A stretch of 25,047 nucleotides of DNA. It comes from a virus. Under the pieces are notes generated by a model that was given only the letters and a program-made list of their open reading frames with translations, was not told the DNA's origin and ran no database searches. The position numbers and the translations under genes were made by a program. Below, one piece after another: positions 991 through 23,971 of the stretch (the first letter of the stretch is position 1; each line of letters begins with the position of its first letter). The stretch lies in IMG/VR virus record IMGVR_UViG_3300023175_001936, positions 1-25,047 of that record; one strand, 5' to 3'.

Positions 991-999
991 ATCTACTCC

Positions 1000-1713: not shown

Positions 1714-1723
1714 TGTTCTCTCC

Positions 1724-3151: not shown

Positions 3152-3152
3152 C

Positions 3153-3335: not shown

Positions 3336-3339
3336 AATT

Positions 3340-3933: not shown

Positions 3934-4109
3934 TACGCTCCCCAAGTTTTTCTTTTCTTAAACAAATCAAAAAAGATTGCTGATACCTCTTGTCTGATAA
4001 TTTTTCGGATTAAATCCTTATCAGATTCATTGAGTTCTTCGTTGATTGTTCCTTTTTTAAAATTAACGATTTCCTCATTGATAATATCATACAACTCTTT
4101 CTTAGTCAT
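3933..4109 (-). CDS. Small core-like protein, 58 aa, coupled to the protease
   Basis: An ATG at 4109 opens 58 codons, ending in TAA that shares bases with the protease start (TAATG). It begins one base after the upstream gene's stop. The protein starts MTKKELYDIINEEIV and continues with TINEELNESDKD: charged, almost all helix, with repeated INE/LNE motifs. Size, leader and location just before gene 21 resemble small prohead core proteins such as T4 gp67 and gp68, though I see no direct homology. One-base coupling suggests it is made together with the protease. Confidence in coding is good; function is inferred from position. Confidence 0.72.
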   Translation of the reverse strand: MTKKELYDIINEEIVNFKKGTINEELNESDKDLIRKIIRQEVSAIFFDLFKKRKTWGA

Positions 4110-4110
4110 T

Positions 4111-4845: not shown

Positions 4846-5630
4846 TTCTCAATCTCCTGTATCGTTTTAGCGATTTTGATTAGTTTCTCTTTTATAGTAT
4901 AAATATGATTATTTGTTCTTTTCCAATAGTTCTGAGAATCTAACTCGTTCATCGTTTTAATTTTATTATACCAATTGAAAAACTTTTCTACTTCTTTTAA
5001 TTGATACTTTAATTCTTTTAAACCCATTGCCATCTTCTTATGAGGATGCATGGTTTCATCGTTTTTTAATTCTAACCAACGATTTACTGGTCTTTTTATT
5101 TTAGCTTCGTTTACTGATTCTTTTAAATATTTTTTCCAATCTGAAAATTCTGGTGCCTGAGGAACTTCTATAAAATTAGTTTTATACCTTAACTTAGGTT
5201 GTTTACTTAAATCATATCCTAATCGAACAGCAACTTTCTTTTTTAAATCTACATAAAAAAGTGCTCCATGATAATCAATTAAATACGCACCCTTTTTACC
5301 ATCAATAAATCCAGGTATGTTTTTCAATAAAACTCCAGGAGTTGTAAGTCCTAAACCAGAATGTCCTGCAATATATTGTACAGGTGCATCTTTAGTAAGT
5401 TGAAAGTATTTATGTCCTGATTTTGGAGATATCAATCCTTCTGCAAGAGTATATCCTGCTTGAGTAGCAGTTTCTTTTTCTTTCTTCTTATCTTTTTTAC
5501 GATTATTACCAAAAGCAAAAGGAGTATTATACCCAGCAACATTACCTGTTGTGGTAGCCTCTTCTAATTCTTGTTCTACTTCATCAAGAATTTCATCTAA
5601 GATTTCTTTAAGAGTTTTTTCCATTGACAT
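4842..5630 (-). CDS. Modular head-associated protein with one ESVNE linker, 262 aa
   Basis: The first of two nearby ATGs (5630) has AAGGAG eight bases upstream and is preferred. The leader MSMEKTLKEILDEILDEVEQ is an acidic amphipathic helix. After a Lys-rich linker (KKDKKKEKE) comes a probable beta-rich module, about residues 64-150, with GHKYFQLTKDAPVQYIAGHSG and DYHGALFYVDL. ESVNE at 171-175, followed by Ala, separates it from a helical C-terminal module. It overlaps the upstream gene by 23 bases and the downstream one by four. I recognise no enzyme family; internal head protein or cargo is inferred from leader, linker and neighbours. Confidence 0.8.
   Translation of the reverse strand: MSMEKTLKEILDEILDEVEQELEEATTTGNVAGYNTPFAFGNNRKKDKKKEKETATQAGYTLAEGLISPKSGHKYFQLTKDAPVQYIAGHSGLGLTTPGVLLKNIPGFIDGKKGAYLIDYHGALFYVDLKKKVAVRLGYDLSKQPKLRYKTNFIEVPQAPEFSDWKKYLKESVNEAKIKRPVNRWLELKNDETMHPHKKMAMGLKELKYQLKEVEKFFNWYNKIKTMNELDSQNYWKRTNNHIYTIKEKLIKIAKTIQEIEK
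5106..5120 (-). repeat. ESVNE linker repeat in the 262-aa gene
   Basis: Exact 15-base copy followed by Ala. It is the most upstream exact copy; no copy occurs in the portal, terminase or sugar genes. Confidence 0.85.
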
Positions 5631-6504: not shown

Positions 6505-6559
6505 AGTAAAAATTCCCATATATAAATATAAATTTATTAAGTTAAAGGAAATTTTTACT
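6505..6559 (-). repeat. Imperfect inverted repeat around the portal/290-aa gap
   Basis: Arms 6505-6516 (AGTAAAAATTCC) and 6547-6559 (GGAAATTTTTACT) pair over about 12 bases with one bulge. The loop of some 30 bases contains the A/T promoter-like box. The portal stop codon lies in one arm. It may form a transcript hairpin after portal, or simply reflect the A/T-rich gap. Confidence 0.45.
6519..6530 (-). promoter_or_regulatory. Promoter-like A/T box before the 290-aa gene
   Basis: On the coding strand the box reads TATATTTATATA and lies about 38 bases upstream of ATG 6480, within one of the few true gaps in the window. The same core precedes three other gap-separated genes. Confidence 0.4.
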
Positions 6560-8279
6560 CTTCGAGTATGTTATCTTCATCTAACATACCTTTTATTTCA
6601 TGTAAATACTTTCGTTTTGATGCAATACCACTAATATATTCTATAGCTCTATCTTCCGAAGTACGAGAACGCTCTTTTTTTCTTTCTTTATCCCCAAGTG
6701 GGTCTCTACCGTAAGGATGTTTATCTTTTCCATATGTGTTTCCTTCTCTTGGTCTACCACCCTTATCCTTAAGTTCGTTTTTAAGATTTTCTAAAGATTC
6801 CTCAATATCTTCTGGTTCCTCATCTTCCATTGCAGGGTCATTACCCTCATCTTCAATAGAACGGAATCTGAATCTATCTTTCAAATCATCTAACATCTTA
6901 ACTCTTTCTTCATCTTGTTCACCTTCAGATAATTTAAAGATGTTTTCATAAACCCAATCTTTAGATAACATATTTAATCCTGCAATATCTTGAGCCAAAC
7001 GAATTTTTTCTGACCAAAGGTTTACTTTTTCTTGTTCGTAAATTGTAGATGGATTAACTAATCCTAATTCAAAGTTAGTCATTTCAGAATCAGTAACACC
7101 CTGTGAATACAAATGAACAATTGCAATCTTAGTTAATTCTGAAACTACTGTTCTTTGGATTCTTTCGATTGTTCTTGCAAATCTCACATCTTCTGCAGCA
7201 AGAGTTGCTTTACCATTTACATTTTCTTCATATCCTAAATAAGCTTTTGGAATTTTAAGAGCCGCGAATAATTTATTTTTTAGGTAATCAATATCTTCGA
7301 TAGTTGCGTACTCTAAACCAGCAAGGTTATCAATTGATGTACCACTATCACCACCCCTAACTGGTAAGAAGAAATCTTCAGTTAGGTTTTGCATATTGTA
7401 CTTTAAGTTGTAATCACCAGTATTTCTATCAACGAAAGGAACTTTCTTCATTTTGTTGATAATTCTCTGCATATAGTTATCCACTTCTGTTGGTGGGATA
7501 TTACCAATATCAATTTTGAAAACTCTTTTTTCTGGTGCTCTCATGATTCTATGAATTAACATAGCATCTTCCATCAGAGATAATTGTTTCCACAATCTTC
7601 TTCCATTCTCAATCATGGATTTACCATAAGGCAACCAGTTAGTATCCGCTAACAATCTAAAGTGAGCGATTTCAAAGTTTTCATATTCTTCTTTTCCATT
7701 CGGGTCCTCAGTAATTTTAAATTTTACTGAATTTGGATTTGATGGGTCTGTTCTTTCTAATCTTTCTGTATTGTAAACAGAGTGAGGAGTAACATTTACG
7801 ATACCTTTACCTTCAGCGATTTCTAAACCTAAGAAGAAATCTCCATACTTACACATATTTCTTACCCATGGCCATAAGTTGAATTCAACGTTAAGGATAT
7901 CGTAAAATAAGTTGTTTAATAAATCTTGTACTTTTTGATTATCTGAATGAACCAAGAGAGTATCACCAAATTCATTTTTTAGTGTTGATTCATCTGCGTA
8001 TATATCGAGTGCTGATGCTAATATTGGGTCATTATCCATTGCATCATAATCACGAAAAACTTCTCTACGAACTTGTTGGTATGCCATTGATTGAGCACCA
8101 CCAGCCTGTTCGAAGAAAGATTTCTGTAATTTAGTGTATCTATCTCTTAAAGATGATAGATTCGTTTGTTGTCTTTCATCAGTATCAACTACTCTTCTCT
8201 TACCTTCTTTATCAACAGTAACAACTGCTTGAGTACGAAAGAGTTTAGTTAATCTACCAAAAAATGAAGTATCTGCCAT
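6555..8279 (-). CDS. 20: Portal protein (T4 gp20-like), 574 aa
   Basis: This protein forms the dodecameric ring at the special capsid vertex, starts prohead assembly and is the channel for DNA packaging. Evidence includes the family-like N-terminal half (FRDYDAMDNDPILASALDIYADE, quoted only in part here: RDYDAMDNDPILASALDI), WPWVRNMCKYGDFFLGLEI, the segment APEKRVFKIDIGNIPP, and LKIPKAYLGYEENVNGKATL, where portal proteins of this group have a conserved helix and loop. T4 gp20 is 524 residues, so size fits. The last 90 residues are charged and low in complexity (EDEEPEDIEES, GRDPLGDKERKKERS) and look like an extension. Gene order terminase, small basic protein, portal, protease supports the call. 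Confidence 0.93.
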   Translation of the reverse strand: MADTSFFGRLTKLFRTQAVVTVDKEGKRRVVDTDERQQTNLSSLRDRYTKLQKSFFEQAGGAQSMAYQQVRREVFRDYDAMDNDPILASALDIYADESTLKNEFGDTLLVHSDNQKVQDLLNNLFYDILNVEFNLWPWVRNMCKYGDFFLGLEIAEGKGIVNVTPHSVYNTERLERTDPSNPNSVKFKITEDPNGKEEYENFEIAHFRLLADTNWLPYGKSMIENGRRLWKQLSLMEDAMLIHRIMRAPEKRVFKIDIGNIPPTEVDNYMQRIINKMKKVPFVDRNTGDYNLKYNMQNLTEDFFLPVRGGDSGTSIDNLAGLEYATIEDIDYLKNKLFAALKIPKAYLGYEENVNGKATLAAEDVRFARTIERIQRTVVSELTKIAIVHLYSQGVTDSEMTNFELGLVNPSTIYEQEKVNLWSEKIRLAQDIAGLNMLSKDWVYENIFKLSEGEQDEERVKMLDDLKDRFRFRSIEDEGNDPAMEDEEPEDIEESLENLKNELKDKGGRPREGNTYGKDKHPYGRDPLGDKERKKERSRTSEDRAIEYISGIASKRKYLHEIKGMLDEDNILEE

Positions 8280-8732: not shown

Positions 8733-10325
8733 TTATTTAATTAACCAAGTTAAATCCTCATTTGTATCACCAACTCGTTGTTTCCATGGATTTTCTTCGA
8801 GTGCAGAATTACCACCAAATCCCATACCTACTATATCTAATTGATGTGCTCCAATACCACCCAATGCTTGTTTGGTTAAATCAATTCCCTCTTGTCTTAA
8901 TCTTAATGCTGTATCACGAACCCAAAGACCAATTGCAAATGACATAGTTAAATCATCATTGTATCCAGTCATTGCTTCTGCTCTATTTCCTTTCCATATG
9001 AAAGTGAATAATTCATCGATTAATCTTGATGAACGAACTGTTACTGATTTATCTCTAAAATAATCATCCAACTTTGATATAATCAAAGGTCTTGTTTTGG
9101 ATGTAGTACTAAATCCTGCAACCATACCTCGTTCTTCGGCACGGTATCTATTTGATAGTTGATGTTCAACATCTACATATTTTAAATCCTTACTCATATA
9201 GAATAAGTTCTGATATCCTCTATCAATTACTTGTTGTATAACCGCCCATCCAATGTTTGCATTCTCAATCACAAGTAATGCTTGATTATAATCTGTTGCA
9301 AGTGATACAAGGAAGTTTCCAAAATCCTTTGTATCTAATTTACCTTTATATTCTGCTACTTGAGATGCTTCTTCAACATCAAAAACATGACAAGCTGAAT
9401 AATCCGATGAATCTCCACGAGCAACATCGGCTACAACCATGTAAGATTTATTGTAGTTTGGGTATTCCCATTTCCAAAGGTTTCCATCAAATCCTGTCTT
9501 TTCTATTGGTTCTTGACAATAAGATTCTTTGTAGAACATTAAAAGTTGTGGGTCTATTACAGTATCACCAGAAGAAACGAAATCACAATCACATTCTTGT
9601 GCCGCTCCCTTTGGTCCTAATAGTTTTTCCTGTTCATCTCTCCAATCTTGGTTTCTTTCAGGATGAACTGACCAATGTAAACGAATTGTATTGAATCCAT
9701 TTTCTTCTTCTTCTGCACCTACCCAAGTTTTGTGAAAGAAATTTCCGACACCATTGGGTGTAGAAAGAATAATTGCATTACCACCAGTAGATAAGGTAGA
9801 TTGAGCCGATACCCAAATATCCTCAATCTTATCAATAAAAGCAGCCTCATCAAATACTAAAAGTGATAGTGCTTCAGAACGACCAGCATCTCCAGCGGCT
9901 GAAGTTGCTTTTATCTGAGAACCATTTGAGTATCTTAGGGATAATTTGTTATCTTCTACTGTTGTTTGTTTTAACCACGATGGTAAGTACTGATTCATTA
10001 CACGAACCTTCGTTACAAGGTTCTTAGCAACTTCTTGTTTAGTTGCAATAACTAATACATTAAAATCTTGATTGAACAACATTTTCCATAATGCAAATCC
10101 TGCAGTTAAGGTTGAGATACCTGTTTGTCGAGATTTTAGAATTATATTGTATCTGTGTTCATTGAATTGGTCTAAAGTTCTTTCTTGGAATGGATATAAG
10201 TGAAAAGGAATTTTGCCTCGGACTGGATGTTGAATCATACAATACTTCTTCATGAAGTGTATTGGGTCTTGAGCACATTTTTGATACTCAAGTTTAATTA
10301 TTTCCTTTAAACTTTGTTTAGCCAT
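8733..10325 (-). CDS. 17: Terminase large subunit (T4 gp17-like), 530 aa
   Basis: This is the DNA-packaging motor: an N-terminal ATPase that pumps DNA through the portal and a C-terminal nuclease that cuts the concatemer. The Walker A-like loop is KSRQTGIST (residues 64-72), the Walker B strand is LSLLVFDEAAF (153-163, Asp159 and catalytic Glu160), and the coupling motif is probably ILSTPNG (186-192). The RNase H-like nuclease shows VVADVARGDSSDYS (Asp300), LVIENANIG (Glu354) and GYNDDLTMS (Asp457/458), matching the usual acidic triad. Length is somewhat below T4's 610. The start lies one base after the preceding stop. All key residues are present, so it should be active. Confidence 0.96.
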   Translation of the reverse strand: MAKQSLKEIIKLEYQKCAQDPIHFMKKYCMIQHPVRGKIPFHLYPFQERTLDQFNEHRYNIILKSRQTGISTLTAGFALWKMLFNQDFNVLVIATKQEVAKNLVTKVRVMNQYLPSWLKQTTVEDNKLSLRYSNGSQIKATSAAGDAGRSEALSLLVFDEAAFIDKIEDIWVSAQSTLSTGGNAIILSTPNGVGNFFHKTWVGAEEEENGFNTIRLHWSVHPERNQDWRDEQEKLLGPKGAAQECDCDFVSSGDTVIDPQLLMFYKESYCQEPIEKTGFDGNLWKWEYPNYNKSYMVVADVARGDSSDYSACHVFDVEEASQVAEYKGKLDTKDFGNFLVSLATDYNQALLVIENANIGWAVIQQVIDRGYQNLFYMSKDLKYVDVEHQLSNRYRAEERGMVAGFSTTSKTRPLIISKLDDYFRDKSVTVRSSRLIDELFTFIWKGNRAEAMTGYNDDLTMSFAIGLWVRDTALRLRQEGIDLTKQALGGIGAHQLDIVGMGFGGNSALEENPWKQRVGDTNEDLTWLIK

Positions 10326-11719: not shown

Positions 11720-14700
11720 TTAGAAGAAAATACCAAGTATTTGGTTTACTGATGCAAATGTACCTGTAAGTTTGAAGGTATTTCCATTATATAAGAAAAC
11801 TATACCTTCATTCGGTACTATTTTTTTAGAACCTCCAATAGAATTTAATCTTTGGAGTTCTAATTTAAGTTTTTCTATCTTTTTTGGGTCTCCTGATTTC
11901 TTAACATCCTTGATTGTTTTATCAATTCTCTTTTTCATATCACGAACTGCTGCATCAGGGTTTACAGTTAGAGCAGATGAAGTAAATTCTAACACTTCTG
12001 CTCCTAATCCTAAGAAAATCTGTTCAAACTTCATTAAATTCTGTTTAGAAATCTTCTTTTGGTCCTCTTTATCTATCTTTTTAGCCCATTCAAGTGTTTT
12101 AGAATCAGTAATATTCTTATTATCTAATCTAAACTTCTTATCCATGAATGCCCATCTCTTAACTAACCCCATTTTAGTTTTGTTATCAAGTGTTGATGGT
12201 GAATTTTTATCAACCCATTGTTCCCACCATGCTTGATGGTAGTTTGCAACACCATCCGTATCCTTTAATCCGAATTCTTTTTGTAATTTAGAGATTTGAG
12301 ATGAATATTTACTTCTTTTCTTTGATAAATCGGTAGATTTAGGTAGTTTTACAACAGGTGGGCCTTGAATCGTATAATTATCTTGTACATCTTTGTTAAC
12401 TTGTTTAATCATACCTGCCAAGATTCTTGCAGCCTCACCATTTTCACCAATTGCAACACCCTCATCGTTATATTCCATCGTTCCATGGAATACAAGTAAC
12501 GCTTGACCGTAAGGAATTACATTAACTGATGTTGGATATATCACTTCAAGGTTCATAAAACACGCACCTTGTTTAAAAATCTTATCTCTTTGTTTATCGT
12601 TAAGAGAAGATATAGCATTTGAAAGGTCTTTCATTGCATAGTTGTAAGCATCTGATAATCCACCTCTACCTTGGAACTTATCTGATACACCTTTGATATC
12701 TAATGCGTTCTCACCTTTGTTTTTAAGGTGTCCTTTGTTCCTAGCTGCTACTAATCTTCCATCTCTCCATGAAATTGCAAGAGCTTGACCATCAGTTTTC
12801 TCTCTTGTAAACTCAAGTGTACCTTCGAGTGCACGATTTACGATATCTTTTAATTGTCCAAAGGTTAAATTGATATCAGTATCGAATGGGTGAGACATAT
12901 GTCCATACGCACCACCTTCTGTAATGATACCTTCTCCTAATCCACCTCTATCATGTTTAGAAAACTTACTTAATTTATCAAAATTTGGATGAGATTTTAA
13001 ATCAGATTGTTTCTTAGGTCTCATATCAGATAGTTGTTTGTATCTCATATGATTTTTTACTATATAGTGAACCGTATCTACATTACCACCAACTGATTCA
13101 ATCCATTTTTTGTACTTATTTACTAAATTAGCAGATACTTTCTCATGTCCAAAGTGTGTGATATGTCCTTTCTTTGGATGAATTCCCGCAGTTTCATCTT
13201 TTCCTATATCGTGGAACATTGCTGCGATTGCAATATCGATATCATCTTCTTTGATTGAACGATTTACAACTGTGATTGTATGTTTAAGTACATTCCCTTC
13301 AGGGTGTTTATCAATTCTCTGTCCAAAGTTCTTTAAGTTATACACTCTCTTTTGTAAATCAGATGGCATTTTCTTAAAGAGTGATTTGAAATCGGTGATT
13401 CCTAATTTTTTAAGTTCTTTACCTTCTCTAATTGGTTCATATTGATACTCTTGATTTGAATCAGTATTATTTCTTTGTTTCTTAACTCTTTTTTCGATTC
13501 GTTTTAAATCATCTTTAGATGGATATCCCATACGAATACCACTTTGACCAGTACCAACTCCTACTTCCTCTATGGTTGCAAGTTTTGTGTAGTATTTTGG
13601 GTCCTCGAATAAGTGGTCTTTAGCGATATCGTATGCAACTTTTACATCTGAAGTGTGTTCCATTTCAACTTTAACACCTTTTCCTGCTTCTTTCTTTAAT
13701 TCTTCGAAAGAAACTTCGTGTTTTTCTGCAATATCTCTTAAACTCATACCTTTTGCAAGTTGTTCAAATGCAAGAACAGGGTTAGATGTTTTAAAATCAT
13801 CCTTTCTCATTACTGTTTTTGCAATAATCTGATTTGCTTGTTTAACAAATGGAATATTGATATCATGTCTTTTATCTTTTACAACGATTTGTTGATATTT
13901 TTCTAAGAATTCTTTAAATTTCTTTTTATACTTTGATAATCTTTTAAAAAATCCCGTCAATTCTGCATCAGAAATTTCTTTTCCATTACGAGGGTCGTTC
14001 AATCTATCGAAAAAATGTTTTGTGAACTCAATATCTTCTGGTGATAATTGTTTCTCAGCATATTTTTCAATCTTATTAAGAGTAGATTTAGACATTTCAT
14101 TTGTTTCTTTTGGTTTATTAAATGAAATGTTTGATTTGTTATCAAATTTATCTACTTCTGCATCTCTAAGTTTAGGTAAGAACTTAAATCTTGCTCTTTT
14201 TAAAACTCTTTTCTTTTTTCTAAGTACATTTTTATGAACTACCTTTGCCTGTTGAATAGTTAATTCTGCTTTTGTTTTACCAGGAAACAAATCTTCCATA
14301 AATTCTTTGTAAACTTCTAAGTATGCTTTTTTGTATGCAATCTTTTTAAGTTTATCAATAGATTTTCTTCTTTTCATGGTACGAGCTCTTCTTCGTTGAA
14401 TCTGTGCTCGTTTACCAGCCATTTTAGCCTTTCTTCTTAGTAAATCTGCTGGTCTTAACTTTCCTTTACTTCTTTCATCTATATCTACATCTTCAGATAA
14501 TCCCATTTTTTCTTGCCAAGAATCAAATGCATCAAAATCATATTCTTGTTTTTGTGAATCCCAACCACAAGAATGACATAAGTATTTTTCAGTATCTTCT
14601 GATTCTATTTCCCAAGAGTGATTACATTTCTCACACTTAACTTCTGTTCCAGCAATAGATTCTCTTAAACCAATAGATTCATTCTTCATCATTTTATCAA

Positions 14701-16984
14701 CCAACCCTACATGAGATTCACCTGCTATGACAATTGGTATTTTTCCTTGAGAAGATAATTCTTTACTTTTTTTAATAAGGTGTTCATCTCTTGTTTCATT
14801 AAATGCATCTTGAATATCACCTATCTTTGTTTGTTTATCTTTGTTATCTTCTGGAAATGCTAAACGATATAATGTTCCTTTATCGCCACTTCCTTTCCAA
14901 TCATTTTCATCACTTGGGGTTTCACCTGTTGGATTCTCCCAATTTTCTATTGGAGGAAATCCTGCCTCTTTTGCTGCAGATTGTATGTATTCTTTTCCTT
15001 CATCATCTAAAAAATCATCAGGACTCATGGTATCAGTTCCTTCACCCTGTCCAATCATACTTGCCCAATTACCTGCATTAACTTGTGATTGATTAAGACC
15101 AGTTTTTTCCATTTGTCTTTTATACAATTTGGATTGGTCATTATGAACATCCATTTCATCACCATCCCATGTATCAATACCTGCACCCAATTCTTTGAAT
15201 TTAGGAACAGCATAATCCATTTCATCATTGAATTCTAATTCACCATTATCTCCAGTTGCACCACCTTCACCTACGAATACAATATCTTTCCATCTTTCTT
15301 TTGGTATGTTCTTTTTAACATCATCAAGGATATCATCAACCATTGCGGTTTCTCCGTGCTCCGTTCCATATACTTTACCACCACCATCTAAACCAAGATT
15401 TTGAATTTCTTTACCAGACTTTTTTCCTTGTAAAGTTGTTACTTTTGATTTTGGTTCTTCTTTGGGTTGTGGTTTTTCATTTGAAGTATCTCCACTAATC
15501 TTTTTTTGAATCTCTTTTTCTTTTTTTACTTTATTGTCATACCCACCTTGTTTTAAAGATGTACCTTGTTTTGGCTGTGGTTTAGTTTTACCATCTTTAT
15601 CTAACTCAATATATTTTCCACTATCATCTTTTTTGAAAGTTGGGTCATCTTCACCTTCTTTACCTTTTAGTTTATAGTTACCATTACCTACATGGGTATA
15701 TTTCTCATCTTCTTTTTCATCTTCAAATATTGCTTGGAAACCTTCTTTCATCAATCTAAAGGTTACTACCTTTTTACCATTGATAGTTGGCATTCCATGT
15801 TCATCTTTACCAATTGTTTTTACAGTTACTTTTTTATTTTTAAATCTACCCGTTAGGATAGTATCACCAACCTTAACAGGTAATACAATATTTTCGTTTA
15901 AAGAATTTTCAAATTCATCTTTCAATTCTTTATCACCTTTTGCTAAATTACCAGATTGATTTTTATCTTGAGAAATATCAGCTTTTGCAGAAATTGATTT
16001 TACTAATTCATATCCAGCTAAAGTTGCCTTACGGGTTGCATGTTTAAACCATTGTGAGTATGCACCACTTGAGTAAATATCTATCTGGTTGTTGGGAGTC
16101 ATATTACCAATAATACCTGCTGGAAAGAATGAAGTTGCCTTAACAGGTCCATTTGGATAGTTTGGGTGGTCATAATAATCTTCGATTTCTTGTGTGGTAA
16201 TCATATTAAGAACTTCCCAACCTATTTTCTTAGCTCTATCTATATTTACCTTTGAAAACACATCGTAATTTGGAAAAAAGAAGCTTGGCCCATCATCAAC
16301 ATCACTTCCAGCGTTCCCACCTAAGTTAGAACTCTCATTGATGAGCCATTCTTCAATTACTTCTTTAGGAATCTCAATTCCTTCATTAAGTTTATCAGTA
16401 ATCATTTTGAAAATCGTCATATTGAACTTTCCATATGCACGATTCTTAAAGAAGTTTTGTTTTTGTTCATCCGAACCAACTGATAACCCATTACGAGTTT
16501 CAGTTCCACTTATACCCCTACCTTGTGATGGTGAAGCATAAACATATCCACCCTCTTCATAACCAATTTCGGCCTTTCCTTTCCATGGTCTAAAATACTT
16601 TCCACCTAATCTACCAGAATCTTTCTCACCAACAACGGTTACGAAGGCAGTTGTTTCTTTATCGTATTTATCGAGGATTTCTTTCGGTGCATAATTGTTT
16701 CTTACCTGTACTATTTTTGATTTAGGTATATTGAACATCGTAGTCATGATTTTCACCTTCTCTTTGAAGTTAAAAGGTGATTTGGGTTTTTCTACTTTGT
16801 TGGAAGTACTGATAAAAACATTATTCTTACCGAATTTTTTGACAAGGTGTTGGTATGTGCCATAGTGTCCTTTATGGAATGGTTGAAATCTACCACCATA
16901 AATTACTACGACCTTTTTAATAGGATTTTCATCCTCTAAGAGCATTTGCTCTACGAGATATTGTGAAAGTTCATTCATATTCAA
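11720..16984 (-). CDS. Giant multi-enzyme polyprotein, 1754 aa: NMNAT-like, zinc ribbon, HD hydrolase, KxDG ligase-like
   Basis: Domains in order: leader 1-20; NMNAT-like nucleotidyltransferase 21-195 (GGRFQPFHKGHYG, later ISGTETR); unknown module 218-364; small module 365-415 (GRFKNKKVTVKTIG); a longer unknown module about 515-765 with GTEHGE, VGEGG and GESHVG, faintly like Tiki/TraB/ChaN proteins; zinc ribbon (Cys784, 787, 803, 806); Arg/Lys-rich 838-945; a KHFFDRLNDPRNGKEIS module; DUF5661-like segment 1100-1140 (KVEMEHTSD); HD hydrolase 1188-1345 (His1235, His1258-Asp1259); and ligase-like nucleotidyltransferase 1357-1754 (KTDG at 1396, EGIVF at 1726, Lys1738). LNE-G, INE-S, LRE-S, IRE-G and ITE-G lie near junctions. 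The second ATG (16978) is an alternative start. The frame is open throughout. Cleavage into separate enzymes is inference. Confidence 0.9.
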   Translation of the reverse strand: MNMNELSQYLVEQMLLEDENPIKKVVVIYGGRFQPFHKGHYGTYQHLVKKFGKNNVFISTSNKVEKPKSPFNFKEKVKIMTTMFNIPKSKIVQVRNNYAPKEILDKYDKETTAFVTVVGEKDSGRLGGKYFRPWKGKAEIGYEEGGYVYASPSQGRGISGTETRNGLSVGSDEQKQNFFKNRAYGKFNMTIFKMITDKLNEGIEIPKEVIEEWLINESSNLGGNAGSDVDDGPSFFFPNYDVFSKVNIDRAKKIGWEVLNMITTQEIEDYYDHPNYPNGPVKATSFFPAGIIGNMTPNNQIDIYSSGAYSQWFKHATRKATLAGYELVKSISAKADISQDKNQSGNLAKGDKELKDEFENSLNENIVLPVKVGDTILTGRFKNKKVTVKTIGKDEHGMPTINGKKVVTFRLMKEGFQAIFEDEKEDEKYTHVGNGNYKLKGKEGEDDPTFKKDDSGKYIELDKDGKTKPQPKQGTSLKQGGYDNKVKKEKEIQKKISGDTSNEKPQPKEEPKSKVTTLQGKKSGKEIQNLGLDGGGKVYGTEHGETAMVDDILDDVKKNIPKERWKDIVFVGEGGATGDNGELEFNDEMDYAVPKFKELGAGIDTWDGDEMDVHNDQSKLYKRQMEKTGLNQSQVNAGNWASMIGQGEGTDTMSPDDFLDDEGKEYIQSAAKEAGFPPIENWENPTGETPSDENDWKGSGDKGTLYRLAFPEDNKDKQTKIGDIQDAFNETRDEHLIKKSKELSSQGKIPIVIAGESHVGLVDKMMKNESIGLRESIAGTEVKCEKCNHSWEIESEDTEKYLCHSCGWDSQKQEYDFDAFDSWQEKMGLSEDVDIDERSKGKLRPADLLRRKAKMAGKRAQIQRRRARTMKRRKSIDKLKKIAYKKAYLEVYKEFMEDLFPGKTKAELTIQQAKVVHKNVLRKKKRVLKRARFKFLPKLRDAEVDKFDNKSNISFNKPKETNEMSKSTLNKIEKYAEKQLSPEDIEFTKHFFDRLNDPRNGKEISDAELTGFFKRLSKYKKKFKEFLEKYQQIVVKDKRHDINIPFVKQANQIIAKTVMRKDDFKTSNPVLAFEQLAKGMSLRDIAEKHEVSFEELKKEAGKGVKVEMEHTSDVKVAYDIAKDHLFEDPKYYTKLATIEEVGVGTGQSGIRMGYPSKDDLKRIEKRVKKQRNNTDSNQEYQYEPIREGKELKKLGITDFKSLFKKMPSDLQKRVYNLKNFGQRIDKHPEGNVLKHTITVVNRSIKEDDIDIAIAAMFHDIGKDETAGIHPKKGHITHFGHEKVSANLVNKYKKWIESVGGNVDTVHYIVKNHMRYKQLSDMRPKKQSDLKSHPNFDKLSKFSKHDRGGLGEGIITEGGAYGHMSHPFDTDINLTFGQLKDIVNRALEGTLEFTREKTDGQALAISWRDGRLVAARNKGHLKNKGENALDIKGVSDKFQGRGGLSDAYNYAMKDLSNAISSLNDKQRDKIFKQGACFMNLEVIYPTSVNVIPYGQALLVFHGTMEYNDEGVAIGENGEAARILAGMIKQVNKDVQDNYTIQGPPVVKLPKSTDLSKKRSKYSSQISKLQKEFGLKDTDGVANYHQAWWEQWVDKNSPSTLDNKTKMGLVKRWAFMDKKFRLDNKNITDSKTLEWAKKIDKEDQKKISKQNLMKFEQIFLGLGAEVLEFTSSALTVNPDAAVRDMKKRIDKTIKDVKKSGDPKKIEKLKLELQRLNSIGGSKKIVPNEGIVFLYNGNTFKLTGTFASVNQILGIFF

Positions 16985-17022: not shown

Positions 17023-17139
17023 TTAGTGATTCTTATAAATGAAAGGGTCTCTTTTACGAAGTTCTTCTAATCTTTTTTTATATTGCTTATTTAACTTTCT
17101 TTTTTTTAAGTATTCTTTAATTTTTTTTATCAACCACAT
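17023..17139 (-). CDS. Small basic phage protein, 38 aa
   Basis: ATG at 17139 opens 38 codons overlapping the end of the glycosyltransferase gene by 23 bases in another frame. The product, starting MWLIKKIKEYLKKRK and ending RKRDPFIYKNH, is extremely basic and helical. The ending EELRKRDPFIYK is one I recall from short proteins in other T4-like marine phages, which is the main support for calling it a gene rather than chance. Beyond the overlap, the stretch would otherwise be a noncoding gap. Function is unknown. Confidence 0.62.
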   Translation of the reverse strand: MWLIKKIKEYLKKRKLNKQYKKRLEELRKRDPFIYKNH

Positions 17140-18523
17140 AATTTTTTAAGTTTGTTATAAATTCTCTTTCAGTATCTTGTTTACTTTCAGCATATTTAAA
17201 AAGTAAAGATTGATTATGTATAAGTATATCTTTAATTGAATCATACCAATTATGTATTTCTTCAGTTGATAACGAATTTAATCTTAGTATTTCATCAGAA
17301 ATCATTTTTATTCTTAACGCATCATTATGTTCATTATCATACTCTTCATTTATAAAAGGTGAAAATGTTTTAAAACCTATATTTCGTAATTCTTGTAATG
17401 CACCAGCTTTATTAACTTGTATAAATGGTTGTAAATGTCCTATTGGTTTCCAAGTTTTTTCTGAAAGGTATAAACCATCTTCATAAAAATTTGTTTCGGT
17501 ACAAATATTAATATATGAATCTAAGTAAGGTTGTTTGTTTTCAAAATTAAATCCCCAAACAGAATTTATATCATCATAATCAATAGTTTCTTTTTTATTG
17601 TTTATAATATCAAACGATTTTTCGTAAAGTTCCTCACCTATAACATCACCTGCATGATGTAAGTAAAATGATAAATCATTTTCTCTATCAAATAAACTTA
17701 TATCATAAGAAACCAAGTTTTCTTTTATAAAATCTAAACCTAACAAACATAACAAAATCATTCGTTGAGGTCTTAATCTTCTATTCATCAATAAAAACTT
17801 TGTTTTACGAATTTTTGAATCTAAATCTTCAGATTTAACAATACTATTTTGTTGGTCGATATCATCCCAAAATTTATAATCAACCCCATCATAAATCTCT
17901 TTTAATTCTTTTGATTTAAATCGTAAAGACCATGGCCAGTAAACCATTTTTACTTTTTTCGGATTATGGTTTCTTACTTTTTTATGTAATGTTTCAATAT
18001 CAACTGCGGATGATAATAAAATTACTTTATTTTCTGGTATTTCATATTTTTCTAATACTTCATACAAATTAGAGAAAAAATCAATAGGAAATACTCCCTC
18101 AGTGCCATAGTTTATAATAAGATAAAAATTATCATTTGTTTTAATGTTATTTAAACTATCTTTCGAAATAAAATCTATAAAACAACTTTCTGAAAATCCT
18201 CCAAATTGTTTTCCTAAAAAATGATTAAAATTACCAAATGGCTCTACGAGATAAAAACACACATCATTTTTATATCTTGTATTATTTAAGTAATCATGTA
18301 TTGTTAATTTATTAAACAATAAATGGTCTGAATTTAAAAATACATTAAATACAGATGGTTGTACAAAATTTTTAAAAAAATGATTTTGTAATTCAAAATC
18401 TGATACGAAATCTTTTTCAAAGTATTTTTGTGAATAATAGTAATTTAATGCATTAGGAATCCAGTCATTTGGTCCTCTAAAATCATAAATTATATTCAGA
18501 TTTTTTATTTTTTCAACTTGCAT
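17117..18523 (-). CDS. Putative phage glycosyltransferase, 468 aa (paralogue 1)
   Basis: The C-terminal half carries the features of a phage glycosyltransferase-like family: an Arg-rich strand LLMNRRLRPQRMILL (244-258), YLDSYINICTETNFYEDG (333-350), LSEKTWKPIGHLQPF (353-367) and IGFKTFSPFINEEYD (382-396). In related sugar-transferring enzymes the TEK/SEKT-KP segment lies at the donor-binding site. The N-terminal 230 residues are divergent and not recognised. It overlaps the E1-beta-like gene by 11 bases. A clear paralogue lies at 22101-23342, sharing the C-terminal motifs but not the N-terminus, as if the two act on different acceptors. Transferase activity is family inference; donor and acceptor are unknown. 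Confidence 0.75.
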   Translation of the reverse strand: MQVEKIKNLNIIYDFRGPNDWIPNALNYYYSQKYFEKDFVSDFELQNHFFKNFVQPSVFNVFLNSDHLLFNKLTIHDYLNNTRYKNDVCFYLVEPFGNFNHFLGKQFGGFSESCFIDFISKDSLNNIKTNDNFYLIINYGTEGVFPIDFFSNLYEVLEKYEIPENKVILLSSAVDIETLHKKVRNHNPKKVKMVYWPWSLRFKSKELKEIYDGVDYKFWDDIDQQNSIVKSEDLDSKIRKTKFLLMNRRLRPQRMILLCLLGLDFIKENLVSYDISLFDRENDLSFYLHHAGDVIGEELYEKSFDIINNKKETIDYDDINSVWGFNFENKQPYLDSYINICTETNFYEDGLYLSEKTWKPIGHLQPFIQVNKAGALQELRNIGFKTFSPFINEEYDNEHNDALRIKMISDEILRLNSLSTEEIHNWYDSIKDILIHNQSLLFKYAESKQDTEREFITNLKNYVVDKKN

Positions 18524-19061
18524 AATACAATTCAGGATATTCTACTAATATATGTATTCCACCTTTAGATAAAGCTGTTTTGTAAGCAGGCAATATTTGT
18601 TCTGATGATTTTAAATCTTGAATGGTAACATTTGTTAACATTTGTTTGAATGGTTCTGTATAGTTTGCTTTGTGTTGATGGCCAGGGTCTAATGGTTTAT
18701 CAGAACCTTTACCAACTCTTACAATTACGTTTGGTTTCCACTCACCATCAGACATCGCTTCTAACTTATCCAAGTGATTAATAAGTTGGTTTGCTGCAAG
18801 AATAAGAAAATCCCATCTTGGGTAGAAAGTAACAACTTGGTGTCCTGTCATTGCAAGACCCATTGTCATTCCCATTTGAGTTTCTTCCATTACTGGAGTT
18901 TCAATCATTCTATCTTTTGGTAAACCTTCAATGGTTTTTGACATTGGGTTTCCGTAATACACAATCTGTTGGCCAATAAAAATTGTAGATGGATTGCCCA
19001 TACAAAGTTTCATAGCTTCTGTAAGTGCATCTACATATGGTGTAAATTCTGGTTTACTCAT
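18513..19061 (-). CDS. Short E1-beta/transketolase-type TPP pyrimidine-domain subunit, 182 aa
   Basis: This matches the pyrimidine-binding domain of two-subunit thiamine-diphosphate enzymes such as pyruvate dehydrogenase E1-beta. Seen are TIFIGQQIVYYG (26-37), the motif ETPVMEETQMG, with Glu59 in the place of the catalytic Glu that activates the cofactor, FYPRWDFLILAANQL, and DPGHQH (125-130), near the place of the usual GxQHSQ. E1-beta chains are about 325 residues; this protein ends after the first domain and lacks the transketolase C-terminal domain. The stop is natural and the next gene overlaps it, so it is not an obvious truncation. Its likely partner is the alpha-like gene at 23327, five genes upstream. 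Confidence 0.82.
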   Translation of the reverse strand: MSKPEFTPYVDALTEAMKLCMGNPSTIFIGQQIVYYGNPMSKTIEGLPKDRMIETPVMEETQMGMTMGLAMTGHQVVTFYPRWDFLILAANQLINHLDKLEAMSDGEWKPNVIVRVGKGSDKPLDPGHQHKANYTEPFKQMLTNVTIQDLKSSEQILPAYKTALSKGGIHILVEYPELYYAS

Positions 19062-20197
19062 AATATATCTGTTATTTTATTAATTTTTAGTTTTGTATCG
19101 AATACCACAGATATTCTTGTATTTGTTTTGCTATTATTTTTAAAATCATGAAAAGTATTACCTATGTATAATATATCATCATTAATATTTTCTATTTTAG
19201 ATATTTTATTATAGTTAAAAAATTCAAAAAATGAATTATCTGATGGCTGTATTTCATAAACATATCTGTTTGAATCGTGTGTCGAATCTTGATGGTATCC
19301 TAAACTATAATTTGGTGGATATTTCATTAACCAAATATTTAATAATTTAAAATTTTGTAATTTTTTGATTACATCATCAATTAAATTAGTATCAGTCAAA
19401 TCTTCATCATAAGCAACATTATTTTTATCAACAGAATATAGTAAATATTGTTTTTTATCATTATGTTTTACAACATCCAATAATGAATCAAAATCATTCT
19501 TATTAAAAATTTTATTTTTTACTAACTTTGGTAATTCTATTTTTTTAACATTTTCGTAATTACTTTTTTCTAATTCTTCAATAATAATTTTTGTTAAATA
19601 CTCATGACCCTTAAGATTAAAATGTGTATCACTATTTGAGAAATCCGCACCAATTGTTCTATAATCTCTTTTTTCGTTTACTACTAACATAGTATGATAA
19701 AAATCCAATTTATTATCATATAAAATAGTTCTACTTTTAATTTCTTCTGAAAGTTCTAATGTAGAATGCTCACCTCCCAAATCCATGTGAATAAATCTTA
19801 TTAAGATATCTTTTTCTTCTACAAACTTAATTAATTTATTAAATTCATCTATTTGTTTGTTATCATCTCCAAGTTGATTATATCCTCTTGCAAAACTTGT
19901 ACTCTGAACTATAATACAATCGGTGTTTGGATTTTCTTTTAACTTTTGATAAATCCATGTAACCATTAATGGATTTGAATTTCCATTCCTAGCAGCCACG
20001 ATTGGTTTTCTTCCAAAGTAATCAGCAACTTTTGTTGCAAATCTATTATCTACATTATATTGATAATGATGTGGTAATAATAATTTGTCATAGAAAAACC
20101 CATCACGAGGATGTTTATCATCATTAAAACCACCATATAAATGCAAACTTTGTCCCCATGTATAAGAACAACCTGCAAATATCATTGTTGAAATCAT
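19058..20197 (-). CDS. SGNH hydrolase fused to a 2OG-oxygenase-like domain, 379 aa
   Basis: Residues 1-215 look like an SGNH/GDSL hydrolase: MIFAGCSYTWG with candidate nucleophile Ser11, AARNGNSNP (68-76) as the Asn/Gly block, and SDTHFNLKGHEYL with His192. Such enzymes remove or transfer acyl groups on sugars. Residues 235-375 form a second domain: LGYHQDSTHD (His302-x-Asp304), RYVYEIQPSDNSFFEFF, GNTFHDF (His350) and NTRISVVFD (Arg361). An HxD, distal His and Arg fit the iron and 2-oxoglutarate pattern of aspartyl-hydroxylase-like enzymes. No signal peptide is seen. The gene overlaps both neighbours by one to four bases. Role in sugar acylation or oxidation is inferred. Confidence 0.78.
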   Translation of the reverse strand: MISTMIFAGCSYTWGQSLHLYGGFNDDKHPRDGFFYDKLLLPHHYQYNVDNRFATKVADYFGRKPIVAARNGNSNPLMVTWIYQKLKENPNTDCIIVQSTSFARGYNQLGDDNKQIDEFNKLIKFVEEKDILIRFIHMDLGGEHSTLELSEEIKSRTILYDNKLDFYHTMLVVNEKRDYRTIGADFSNSDTHFNLKGHEYLTKIIIEELEKSNYENVKKIELPKLVKNKIFNKNDFDSLLDVVKHNDKKQYLLYSVDKNNVAYDEDLTDTNLIDDVIKKLQNFKLLNIWLMKYPPNYSLGYHQDSTHDSNRYVYEIQPSDNSFFEFFNYNKISKIENINDDILYIGNTFHDFKNNSKTNTRISVVFDTKLKINKITDIL

Positions 20198-21189
20198 TAC
20201 GGTCTTGAATTTGGGTCAAACTGGTCTTTGTTTTCTTTATACCAACGAAGTGCATCTTCTAATCCACTTCTTAAATCGTATTTTGGTTTCCAACCAAGTT
20301 TTAATAATTTTTCATTTGATAATAATCTCTTTGGAATCATCGGTGCTTTATTGTTAACAAACTCAATTGGATTGTCGTTCCCCTCAATCTCTTTGATAAG
20401 TTCTAACACTTCCATTACAGTATATCCTTTACCAAAACATACATTGTAGATATCATAGGTATCCACATTTTCTGCAACTGTGATAAATCCACTAACCATA
20501 TCATCAACATGGATGATATCTCTTACCTCAGTACCATCGCCCCAAAGTGGAATTGGATTTAAATTATCTGCAACTTTTCTGATATTCGCAGGTGTTACAT
20601 GACACTTTTCAAAATCGTACTTATCATTTGGTCCAAACGAGTTAGATGGTCTGATAATTACACATTGCATTGGGTCATGGATTTGATTTGAAAAGAACTC
20701 ACAAAGAGTTTCTCCATATCTCTTCATCCAACCCACTGCTTTGTAAACAGGATAGATGTTTGGTGTTTGTACATTCATATCTTCTGTGCAATACTCTTCA
20801 CCAACATCTGGATATGTTGTATTAGAAGAAATAAACATAAACTTACGAACTTTGTTTCTCCAACTTTGTTCCATAAGGTTTGTATTCATTTCAACATTAG
20901 GAGTAACATGAAGAAGTGGATTCACTTTTGTATCTAAAGCATTTGAAGTATTTGCTGCTGCATGAAATACAACATCTACATCCTTTGATACTTCTTCACA
21001 AAATTCTGCAGTTCTTAAATCTCCTTTTAAAAACTCAACATTTTCACATCCTTCGAAATCGTTTCTTAAATCTCTACTCCAAGATGTTGCTCTAAGGTTG
21101 GTGTACCCATTTTCGTATAACATCTTGATTAATCGTGAACCAATAAATCCACTTGCACCTGTAACTAAAATTTTATCTGTTTTGTTCAT
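20197..21189 (-). CDS. NAD-dependent epimerase/dehydratase (extended SDR), 330 aa
   Basis: An extended short-chain dehydrogenase acting on a nucleotide sugar. The dinucleotide loop is GASGFIG (11-17), followed by GDLR near residue 58 and HAAA (76-79). The catalytic set is intact: Ser121/122 in FISSNTTYP and Tyr146-x-x-x-Lys150 in YPVYKAVG. IRPSNSFGP and VRDIIHVDDMV are typical of UDP-sugar and GDP-sugar epimerases. Length is normal for the class. It overlaps the preceding epimerase by 17 bases and the next gene by one. The exact substrate cannot be told from sequence; a 4-epimerase or GDP-fucose-synthase-like enzyme is possible. Confidence 0.88.
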   Translation of the reverse strand: MNKTDKILVTGASGFIGSRLIKMLYENGYTNLRATSWSRDLRNDFEGCENVEFLKGDLRTAEFCEEVSKDVDVVFHAAANTSNALDTKVNPLLHVTPNVEMNTNLMEQSWRNKVRKFMFISSNTTYPDVGEEYCTEDMNVQTPNIYPVYKAVGWMKRYGETLCEFFSNQIHDPMQCVIIRPSNSFGPNDKYDFEKCHVTPANIRKVADNLNPIPLWGDGTEVRDIIHVDDMVSGFITVAENVDTYDIYNVCFGKGYTVMEVLELIKEIEGNDNPIEFVNNKAPMIPKRLLSNEKLLKLGWKPKYDLRSGLEDALRWYKENKDQFDPNSRP

Positions 21190-22111
21190 AATATTTGTAT
21201 GTTTCTTTTATACCTTCTTCGAATCCAAGTTTTGGTAATAATCCGAATTGTTCTTGTATCTTAGTACTCATTCTTCTTCTCATATCACCATTGGGTTTGG
21301 AAGTATCCCAATTTATTTTTATTTCTTTACCACTAACCTTAGCAACAGTTTCAATCATTCTTTTGATTGATATTTCTTCACCACTACCTAAGTTAGTTGT
21401 TATATGTAATTTATCTTCTAAACATTTGATACAACCATCTGCAACATCTCCAGCGTATATGAAATCTCTTGTTGGTGTTCCATCTCCCCATGCTTCAATC
21501 TCACCATCGGATTCATAAACCTTTCTACAAGTTGCTCCGATTACAGTTGCACCTTCACCGAAGTTATCATATTCACCAAAAATATTTGCTGGTCTTACGA
21601 TTGTCCAATCTTCCCAATTGTGTTGTACTTTATATGCCTCCAAATAAATTTCTGGTATTCTTTTACTCCACGATGGAAACCAATCGTTTGGTGATGGAAG
21701 TGTTTTCCATACTGTATCTTCTACAAATTCTTCTGCTGGTTCATAAACGCCAACCGAACTCATAAATACTAACCAACAATTGTGTTTGTGAGAGTTTTCT
21801 ATAATATTTGTATTAACTTTTATAGATGGTTCAAGAAAATCCAATGGTCTTTCTTTTGCTCTGATTGGTGAACCTTTGATTCCAAATGCATTTACAACTC
21901 CATAAAAGTCAAATTCTTGAAAAAGAGCTTCAACCGTTTCAACATCTCTTAAATCTAAGTTTAAAAATGTAAAATTTTCATTTTGTGGTAAGTTTGTAGA
22001 TTCTTTAATATCTACACCAACCACTATGTATTCTTTTTGTAGAAGTTTGTTTACCAAGTGAGTTCCAACTAAACCACTACAACCTGTTACTAATATTGTT
22101 TTACCACTCAT
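21173..22111 (-). CDS. NAD-dependent epimerase/dehydratase-like, 312 aa, catalytic Tyr apparently lost
   Basis: Extended SDR fold with GCSGLVG (10-16), NLDLRD (51-56), VNAFGIKGSP and VFMSSVGVYEP (115-125) for the Ser. TIVRPANIFGEYDN and TPTRDFIYAGDVADG are standard late motifs. Where the YxxxK would lie, the sequence is WFPSWSK: Lys150 is present but the residue four before it is Pro146, with Phe145 adjacent. A different tyrosine (156 or 160) may serve, or the enzyme may have lost normal redox chemistry. The rest of the fold looks intact, so this is not simple decay. It sits between a glycosyltransferase and a complete paralogous epimerase. Confidence 0.85.
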   Translation of the reverse strand: MSGKTILVTGCSGLVGTHLVNKLLQKEYIVVGVDIKESTNLPQNENFTFLNLDLRDVETVEALFQEFDFYGVVNAFGIKGSPIRAKERPLDFLEPSIKVNTNIIENSHKHNCWLVFMSSVGVYEPAEEFVEDTVWKTLPSPNDWFPSWSKRIPEIYLEAYKVQHNWEDWTIVRPANIFGEYDNFGEGATVIGATCRKVYESDGEIEAWGDGTPTRDFIYAGDVADGCIKCLEDKLHITTNLGSGEEISIKRMIETVAKVSGKEIKINWDTSKPNGDMRRRMSTKIQEQFGLLPKLGFEEGIKETYKYYEQNR

Positions 22112-23342
22112 TTTCTATAACCTTAATATTTTTATCCATCATATCTTCTTTGTATATTTTTTTAAGATGGTTTCTGTTATATATACATATATCTAAAACA
22201 GAAATGTATAATTCATGTAACTCATCTAATGATAATGAAGATAATTTTTTAATTTCATTTGTAATTTTTAAAAATCTCTCAACATTATCTTCTTCTTCAT
22301 CATAAGATTCATCTATAATTTTATCAAAAGTTTTAAAACCAAATTCTTTTAATTGTTTTAAAAATCCTTTATTGGAAAAAACAATAAATGGCTGTAATCC
22401 AATTATTGGTTTTGAAATCTTTTCAGTAAAAAATAATATATCATCTTCAAATGAAGTTTCAGTTACAATATGAATATAAGAATCTAAATATTCTTTTTTT
22501 CTGTAGCAATTTAGAGTAGAAAATCCCATTTTATTTTGAAAATCATGTGTATCAATCTCAATTGGAATTTTTTCATTCATCTCATCTACATATTTTGTTA
22601 AATGAGATAGTTTACTACCTTGTGTATCTATACTATATTGTTTATCTATTTTTCTTATTGCGGATAATATAAATTTATCTAATAAGTTTTCATGTCTTAA
22701 ATATAACAACAACCAATGTCTGTGAAATCGTTGTGTGTTTCTCATAAAACACAAAAAATGTTTATTTCTTTTTGTATTTTTACATTCTGATATATTTGGT
22801 ACTGAGATTGGGTAACCCAAATCAGTAATTCCACCATCTAATAAATTAAATGTTTCTGCAGAATGTATAAAATAGTGATTTGAACCAAAAAATCGAAATT
22901 TTGTTTTTTCTTGTGTATATCTAAAGTTTGATTCCATGCAGATTAAAGATTCATTTTTAATATCAAATCTTTTTAGTTCTTTTTCAATATTATCTATTAT
23001 TTCGTAATCAAATGTAATCGATTCTGAAAGCGATGTTAGAAGGATTTTACACTTACCTTCTTGTATTTTTTTTAATAACGAGTTTGGTAGTGTATCTAAA
23101 ATAGTTTTCTTTGTATAATCATCTTTTATATAAAAATTTTTTAATCCTTCAAAACATTCAATATAAAAAATGTTTTTTTTACCTTTTTGATACTCATTAC
23201 TAATTTGATATGAGGTGCCTGTTAGCCAATTTTCAAAAATAGATAAATGAAACAATGGAACATTATCATCTTTTTTATGAACTAACCCCTCACCATTATA
23301 TTTGGTATTTGGTAACTTAATAAAATTTAAAATACTACCCAT
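22101..23342 (-). CDS. Putative phage glycosyltransferase, 413 aa (paralogue 2)
   Basis: This is the paralogue of the gene at 17117. Shared features are an Arg-rich strand (FLCFMRNTQRFHRHWLLLYL, 196-215), YLDSYIHIVTETSFEDD (285-301), FTEKISKPIIGLQPF (305-319), FGFKTFDKIIDESYD (334-348) and a helical tail SLSLDELHELY. The N-terminal 150 residues do not match the paralogue visibly. It overlaps the E1-alpha-like gene by 16 bases and the epimerase by 11. Attaching one of the sugars made by the operon to a surface or virion acceptor is the simplest reading; direct evidence of substrate is absent. Confidence 0.75.
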   Translation of the reverse strand: MGSILNFIKLPNTKYNGEGLVHKKDDNVPLFHLSIFENWLTGTSYQISNEYQKGKKNIFYIECFEGLKNFYIKDDYTKKTILDTLPNSLLKKIQEGKCKILLTSLSESITFDYEIIDNIEKELKRFDIKNESLICMESNFRYTQEKTKFRFFGSNHYFIHSAETFNLLDGGITDLGYPISVPNISECKNTKRNKHFLCFMRNTQRFHRHWLLLYLRHENLLDKFILSAIRKIDKQYSIDTQGSKLSHLTKYVDEMNEKIPIEIDTHDFQNKMGFSTLNCYRKKEYLDSYIHIVTETSFEDDILFFTEKISKPIIGLQPFIVFSNKGFLKQLKEFGFKTFDKIIDESYDEEEDNVERFLKITNEIKKLSSLSLDELHELYISVLDICIYNRNHLKKIYKEDMMDKNIKVIENEW

Positions 23343-23971
23343 TTTCCCGTTCCATAATGTGGGTACTTAGATTCGTATTTATAATATATCACATCTTCTG
23401 GTACATCTCTCTGAATCCCATTCCATGTATCCAATGTTGGTGTATTTGTAGATACACCATTATCTTCTACCACAAAGTGAAGTGGCAAATCATAGTTTCT
23501 TGCATATTTGTGAACTTCATAAAAGATTCCACTTTCAAATGCCATATCACCCAAAAATACCCAAACTTTATCATCACCACCATTGTACTTAATTGATTTA
23601 GCAACTCCCAATGCAATAGGTAAAGTACCAGTTACAATTGCAGATGCATAGAATTTGGAATCTTTATCTACAATTGTGATTGATTTACCATCAAGAATTT
23701 TTTGTTTTAGTTTATCTTTTTCCACACCATGTAAAAGTGCATGATAGTGAGACCTCCAAGTTGAAAATACCCAATCAGTTGGAGATATTTTTTTGAATAT
23801 TTCTATTAGTTGTTCTTCGTTTCCATTTGATAAATGTATAGGACCTGTAATTTCTCCATTTTCCCAATGAGAAATGATATCATCTTCAAAATTGATTAAA
23901 TCCTCTTTTGAATAATTGCCTTCTGACCATCTATCTTCGTGATAATTTAAATTTTTAATTTCCATTTGCAT
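23327..23971 (-). CDS. Compact E1-alpha-type TPP-binding subunit, 214 aa
   Basis: This matches the diphosphate-binding subunit of TPP-dependent E1/transketolase enzymes. ITGPIHLSNGNEEQL (41-55) corresponds to the usual vHLsiGqE strand, STWRSHYHALLHG (70-82) holds His75/77 at the active-site loop, and IVTGTLPIALGVA precedes the cofactor motif GDMAFESG (141-148) ending in EDNG (169-172), spaced as in the GD-x(about 27)-N signature. E1-alpha chains usually exceed 300 residues, so this is a stripped-down form. It is flanked by the RmlC-like gene and a glycosyltransferase with overlaps of 16 to 17 bases. Moving a two-carbon acyl unit onto a sugar is a possible job, as known for PDH-like pairs in some branched-sugar pathways. 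Confidence 0.85.
   Translation of the reverse strand: MQMEIKNLNYHEDRWSEGNYSKEDLINFEDDIISHWENGEITGPIHLSNGNEEQLIEIFKKISPTDWVFSTWRSHYHALLHGVEKDKLKQKILDGKSITIVDKDSKFYASAIVTGTLPIALGVAKSIKYNGGDDKVWVFLGDMAFESGIFYEVHKYARNYDLPLHFVVEDNGVSTNTPTLDTWNGIQRDVPEDVIYYKYESKYPHYGTGKWVVF

Follow-up and report, generated by a model that had tools for sequence, protein, structure and literature searches.

Closest described systems

In phage T4, the internal proteins IPI-III and Alt are processed by the prohead protease gp21, which cuts after L/I-X-E, and a 10-residue N-terminal capsid-targeting sequence (CTS) is enough for foreign proteins to be packaged in T4 heads (PMC9026906). The T4 capsid protein gp23 is cut after residue 65 (PMC5694885). 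In phiKZ and SPN3US, the head proteases, i.e., gp175 and gp245, trim many packaged and ejected proteins after Glu, mostly at long N-terminal propeptides (PMC5694885, PMC9026906). Polyvalent proteins are chains of unrelated domains that are mosaic among relatives and predicted to be injected; an embedded metallopeptidase is proposed to process them (PMC5512222). Cytidylyltransferase/NMNAT-like proteins were reported in virions of cyanophages S-SM1, S-CREM2, and S-SCSM1, and two of the three papers warn of possible carry-over during purification (PMC3037559, PMC9602691, PMC10665884).

The polyprotein gene described here shares features with each of these systems. Like the T4 internal proteins, it has a short N-terminal peptide ending in L/I-x-E, a gp21-family protease in the same genome, a place in the head cluster, and predicted injection. 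However, the T4 proteins lose end peptides, whereas the many internal sites of the polyprotein would release a series of enzymes. The head proteins of phiKZ and SPN3US, unlike the polyprotein, are not chains of several enzymes. With polyvalent proteins it shares at least two unrelated catalytic domains in one chain and mosaicism among relatives, some of which carry an HExxH peptidase-like module. The polyprotein itself has no such peptidase domain, and its joints carry head-protease sites instead; Pfam search detected no hub domain, i.e., zincin metallopeptidase or ArdC-N, in it. An NMNAT-ligase core is not described among polyvalent proteins in the passages of that source consulted (PMC5512222). 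The cyanophage virion protein (phrog_395, T4-GC190) has a homologous NMNAT-like module, but it is usually a shorter separate gene.

The T4 internal proteins and the polyvalent proteins are each known (PMC9026906, PMC5512222). Neither an account of phage polyproteins cut by a head protease nor one of a chain of interchangeable enzymes with head-protease sites at its joints was found among the open-access papers searched.

Genome setting of the polyprotein gene

On the minus strand of the window, i.e., the whole stretch of viral DNA analysed (25,047 nucleotides), the head genes are ordered as in a T4-like myovirus. The source virus is an uncultivated T4-like marine phage, and the polyprotein gene lies within its head-gene cluster.

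3340 to 3945, minus strand: gp21-type prohead protease, the predicted cutter (phrog_207, 1.7e-49)
6555 to 8279, minus strand: portal protein, gp20-like (phrog_213, 1.8e-63)
8733 to 10325, minus strand: terminase large subunit (55.7% identity to TerL of Flavobacterium phage immuto)
11720 to 16984, minus strand: polyprotein ORF, 1754 codons from TTG (ATG at 16978 conserved in relatives)

After phage immuto, the nearest terminase was that of Microcystis phage Mel-JY01 (54.9%). The protease itself carries LFE/G, VNE/D, and MNE/S near its ends (the slash follows the Glu of each putative site).

The polyprotein ORF is single and intact, exactly where the first-pass annotation had placed it. Its translation probably starts at the ATG at 16978, because relatives begin MNELS or MNKLS; the TTG would then be two codons too early and the predicted product about 1752 residues long. 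The same protein was found at 100% identity on an independent contig (L001). An assembly artefact as the origin of the ORF was ruled out by this contig together with the many relatives.

A low-GC block occupies 17117-25047 on the minus strand. It holds what we take, from our own reading and without a search, to be sugar-nucleotide epimerase-like genes, transketolase-half-like genes (18513-19061 and 23327-23971), and paired glycosyltransferase-like genes (17117-18523 and 22101-23342). These are perhaps surface-glycan genes carried by the phage.

Modules of the polyprotein

The modules are given in the order of the protein, with residue numbers in brackets.

16934 to 16978, minus strand: capsid-targeting-like N-terminal peptide (3-17), MNELSQYLVE/QMLLE/D, compared with the T4 CTS; shared by relatives
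16382 to 16933, minus strand: NMNAT/cytidylyltransferase-like module (18-201), C-terminal LNE/G; Pfam PF01467, phrog_395, weak Foldseek matches
16334 to 16381, minus strand: linker flanked by two sites, C-terminal INE/S (215-217); [LIVM]xE kept in 17/17 distinct relatives
15893 to 16333, minus strand: unnamed module (218-364), C-terminal LNE/N; conserved in relatives
15743 to 15892, minus strand: small beta module (365-414), C-terminal MKE/G; predicted strands, site before it in 17/17 and after it in 23/23
14660 to 15742, minus strand: optional alpha/beta module (core 510-768), IFE/D before and LRE/S (773-775) after; pLDDT about 92
14492 to 14659, minus strand: zinc-ribbon module (776-831), two CxxC, C-terminal LSE/D; site before it in 15/15 and after it in 16/16
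14096 to 14473, minus strand: Arg/Lys-rich helical module (838-963), IDE/R before; no L/I-x-E at its C-terminal end
13565 to 14095, minus strand: phrog_23027-like domain (964-1072) and DUF5661 (1084-1140), C-terminal IEE/V; Pfam and PHROGs
13424 to 13564, minus strand: short optional segment (1141-1187), C-terminal IRE/G; from junction comparison among relatives
12932 to 13423, minus strand: HD module (1188-1351), C-terminal LGE/G; PF01966 1.1e-6, TIGR02692 1e-8, 3wfp/3wfo
12917 to 12925, minus strand: putative cut site ITE/G (1354-1356) ahead of the ligase; L/I-x-E in 38/38 distinct upstream sequences
11723 to 12916, minus strand: KxDG nucleotidyltransferase/RNA-ligase-like module (1357-1754); KTDG, NLEVIYP, EGIVF, FKLTG

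The domain names of the first-pass annotation were matched in Pfam for three modules, i.e., NMNAT-like, DUF5661, and HD, and remain motif-based for the zinc ribbon and the ligase. CTP_transf_like (PF01467) was recognized at residues 28-119 (5.6e-8), and phrog_395, a cytidyltransferase family, matched the same module at 9.5e-13. Foldseek matches of this module to adenylyltransferases were weak. DUF5661 was found at 1084-1140 (7.9e-11) and phrog_23027 at 964-1071 (1.8e-11). A RegB-like identity for the latter domain was rejected, as its only support, a match in the immuto relative (E=0.0056), was below the cut-off. PF01966 covers 1242-1319, and TIGR02692 matches across 1224-1320, under the whole-protein cut-off of that model; judged by sequence match, the HD module resembles the HD region of CCA-adding enzymes.

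The residues 510-768 are confidently predicted as an alpha/beta domain. Foldseek found no fold identity for it, and a TraB/Tiki-like identity had no Foldseek support. The ligase-like module shows the ATP-dependent RNA ligase motifs KxDG, III, IV, and V in order, conserved down to 38% identity. Its Foldseek matches to RNA ligases were weak, with E about 1 or worse (2vug, 8uce, and 6vte at 0.9-3). No Pfam model passed its cut-off for the ligase or the zinc ribbon. Both identities rest on motifs only, and ligase activity is likewise inferred from motifs.

Position and conservation of the putative cut sites

The first-pass annotation had proposed gp21-type sites near the module joints, and all of them are present, i.e., LNE (199-201), INE (215-217), LNE (362-364), LRE (773-775), IDE (835-837), IRE (1185-1187), and ITE (1354-1356). 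Further sites were identified at LVE (10-12) and LLE (15-17) in the N terminus, MKE (412-414), IFE (419-421), LSE (829-831), IEE (1138-1140), and LGE (1349-1351). Most joints have a site; a few do not, such as the one between the Arg-rich module and the next, where no L/I-x-E was found.

The motif is short, and the number of sites is not significant and was set aside as evidence. The strict motif [LI]xE[GASN] occurs 8 times against 4.1±2.0 in shuffles (98 of 2000 shuffles reach 8), and the loose motif [LIVM]xE 24 times against 27.4. The placement is significant, so the earlier view that position is a stronger argument than number held. Segments with pLDDT<50 make up 31% of the length and contain 19/24 of the loose motifs (p=2e-6) and 7/8 of the strict ones (p=0.0017). 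Control motifs showed no such bias: 4/33 for [LIVM]xD, 13/72 for [LIVM]xK, 29/95 for polar-x-E, and 14/32 for the reversed motif. Exceptions such as IGE-N at 1512 lie within folded domains, and low pLDDT may in part come from shallow alignments.

The same placement was seen among relatives. Related loci were fetched (77 in number), and module edges were compared in 42 non-redundant relatives. Of 479 edges, 169 lie within 8 residues of [LIVM]xE[GASND] against 49 expected, i.e., a 3.4-fold enrichment, whereas [LIVM]xD, [LIVM]xK, and small/polar-x-E reach only 0.80, 0.62, and 0.89 of the expected value. For the reversed motif the ratio is 1.9, and it is an imperfect control, partly because the sites occur in tandem pairs. 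The edges are not independent, as joints are common to relatives.

At the ligase start, in all 38 distinct 14-residue upstream sequences, which include that of the stand-alone ligase of LR756500 (37-38% identical), P1 is Glu and P3 is Leu or Ile, while P2 is any of eight residues. The Mel-JY01 ligase, 40% identical, has IAE/GG at the same place. In the divergent LR756508 the motif is absent directly at the ligase, and LDE/S stands shortly upstream. In distinct relatives, [LIVM]xE is kept at the beta start (17/17), beta end (23/23), zinc-ribbon start (15/15), Arg-rich start (16/16), and HD end (14/14), and also at the HD start (9/9, a count without shuffle control). Joint sites clearly exceeded within-linker shuffles, i.e., 38 versus 20.2, 12/13 versus 3.8, 10/14 versus 2.4, and 13/13 versus 3.6. 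The varied P2 within a fixed residue pattern is as expected under protein-level selection. Sites buried in folds and not conserved would have refuted the proposal; instead, they lie in joints predicted to be unstructured and exposed, and they are conserved at every tested junction with the adjoining modules changing around them.

These results bear on the possibility that the chain is packaged but stays uncut, its domains acting as one polyvalent protein after injection and the L/I-x-E joints being ordinary flexible linkers. There are precedents for this, both in polyvalent proteins, which can hold many disparate domains, and in N4 vRNAP, which enters the virion without processing (PMC5512222). 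Also, there are no cleavage data for the polyprotein, and some joints lack a site. However, simple linkers do not account well for the invariant P1 Glu and the Leu or Ile in P3 that unrelated joints share, for control motifs that are enriched neither at edges nor in low-pLDDT segments, or for stand-alone versions whose N-terminal CTS-like peptides close with this motif. An uncut chain is therefore considered unlikely, though not negligible. That the joints carry head-protease-type sites, as first interpreted, is supported; cleavage and packaging of the polyprotein have not been shown.

Separate genes and a possible origin of the joints

Some relatives keep parts of the polyprotein as separate genes. 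Stand-alone ligases open with a short peptide that resembles a capsid-targeting sequence and has L-x-E at its end; the ligase of LR756500 begins MKFLKSYEEFLNE/NLILE/GG, and that of L053 begins MIRLQKILNEVLLKE/GG. In L023 and L017, MIRLKKILKEVLLKE/GG, including the start methionine, is found inside a longer fusion chain, which is what fusion of separately targeted genes would leave. In phage immuto, a single small gene holds the DUF5661 and phrog_23027-like parts and starts with the CTS-like peptide MKKSQLRQIIKE/A. The first-pass annotation called these enzymes not normally fused. They are fused here, but the description understated the case, as the fusion is variable and the ligase remains its own gene in some relatives.

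In L066 (9986-11530 and 12303-13490), an intein breaks the ligase-like gene at REK^TDG, and the gene is divided between two ORFs about 770 bases apart; this may be a split intein whose halves flank another gene.

Three other head-cluster genes of the window carry short DNA repeats at the joints of small modules.

181 to 5120, minus strand: repeats of GAATCAGTAAACGAA (ESVNE) at the joints of small modules; ESINE variant at 4261-4275

Six copies are exact (181-195, 346-360, 547-561, 4276-4290, 4507-4521, and 5106-5120), and the degenerate pattern gives 7 matches in the window against 0.09 expected. Cassette insertion at L-x-E joints seems to reach beyond the polyprotein into neighbouring head genes, because some flanked modules are absent from the counterparts of these genes in a relative (G001). 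The joints could be recombination seams, i.e., short coding repeats at module edges that favour swaps and are kept by DNA homology and not for cutting. The identical 15-base ESVNE repeats, present in these three genes and found in 22 loci, speak for such seams. The polyprotein joints hold a residue pattern with varied P2 instead, and as a replacement for cutting this explanation is very improbable. Seams and cut sites are compatible, and both could be true.

Proposed packaging and function

The major capsid protein of the same virus (G011, identical over the polyprotein) has QLLDE/ATSTG near residue 61, about the position at which T4 gp23 is processed. Genes downstream of the polyprotein, in the head cluster, have an N-terminal [LIVMF]xE in 42/71 cases against 29.7±3.2 shuffled, and genes upstream show no excess (14/81 against 15.5). 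The phrog_395 protein of cyanophage P-TIM40 begins MRFLDFIKE/A. In this phage (L123:1711-3975) a KWDG ligase-like gene stands directly before the phrog_395 NMNAT-like gene, and phrog_455 spans both. Homology of the polyprotein ligase module to the KWDG protein was not detected, as the profile comparison was negative.

T4 RNA ligase and NAD enzymes are non-virion proteins, and the domains of the polyprotein would suit RNA and NAD metabolism, but a multienzyme for RNA repair and NAD that is produced in the infected cell and stays out of the virion is hardly tenable for a gene that lies beside terminase, portal, and protease, has a CTS-like N terminus, and has NMNAT-like relatives in cyanophage virions.

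We regard it as probable that this polyprotein is virion cargo, i.e., that its N terminus directs it to the prohead, that gp21 cuts it there, and that the products are injected as an enzyme set that can change. This reading is built on the observed module anatomy, module exchange, and site conservation and position; the cutting, packaging, injection, and enzyme activities are inferred, with no proteomics on the phage or close relatives. The N-terminal peptide ending in L-x-E sites would bring the whole chain into the prohead core, as the CTS of T4 internal proteins does. At most joints the gp21-type protease would then cleave L/I-x-E behind its Glu. The parts set free, i.e., the NMNAT-like, beta, alpha/beta, zinc-ribbon, Arg-rich, HD, and ligase-like ones, would enter the host together with the DNA.

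The freed parts may help before phage transcription begins. The HD, CCA-adding, and ligase-like modules may process and seal RNA ends against tRNA-cutting defences, and the NMNAT-like module may maintain NAD. NAD and RNA-repair systems in phage conflict have been reviewed (PMC9503650). This purpose is inferred from the kinds of domain present and carries less certainty than the architecture does.

If the cargo reading is true, the head protease also unpacks the payload, beyond capsid maturation, and one targeting signal loads a whole enzyme set. Injected effectors could be read from sequence in a simple way, as the parts that follow a targeting peptide and are bounded by L/I-x-E sites. It would also offer a testable explanation for the place of RNA-repair and NAD enzymes in the late head cluster and not among early genes.

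Module exchange among relatives

In the 42 non-redundant relatives, the NMNAT-like start and the ligase end are nearly constant. Between them, modules are gained, dropped, or found in another order, with the sites retained. The shortest relative, in Mel-JY01, consists of NMNAT and ligase (639 residues as annotated), and the longest has 2108 residues. A CCA-adding/poly(A)-polymerase head domain is optional (10/31 scanned sequences) and varies in position; it follows HD in L016 and precedes HD in L003 and the Arg-rich part in L050. Other optional modules are an HExxH peptidase-like segment, a ParB-type domain, and a ROS_MUCR-type segment.

Because each module stands between cut sites, it could be inserted, lost, or reordered without spoiling its neighbours; under the cargo reading, the sites at the joints would explain piecewise change of the payload. 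With somewhat less assurance, we lean towards a general cassette system in T4-like phages, mainly in the branch near phages immuto and Mel-JY01. Injected enzymes would be strung into polyproteins, the joints would be head-protease sites descended from the targeting peptides of once-separate genes, and new enzymes would be added by insertion at a site.

Several minor observations concern the optional modules. In L025, L029, and L014, a mid-polyprotein module with the metallopeptidase signature HELVH calls to mind the peptidase found in polyvalent proteins. In L060 (1-2301), a ROS_MUCR-matching segment stands between two L/I-x-E sites just ahead of the ligase and is possibly a homing-nuclease-like insert. 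The alpha/beta module recurs without the other modules in giant proteins of up to 2452 residues (contigs L098-L118). These giant proteins have DGHHRW ParB-like segments and proline-rich stretches, and most of them begin MNMNLSELINEI.
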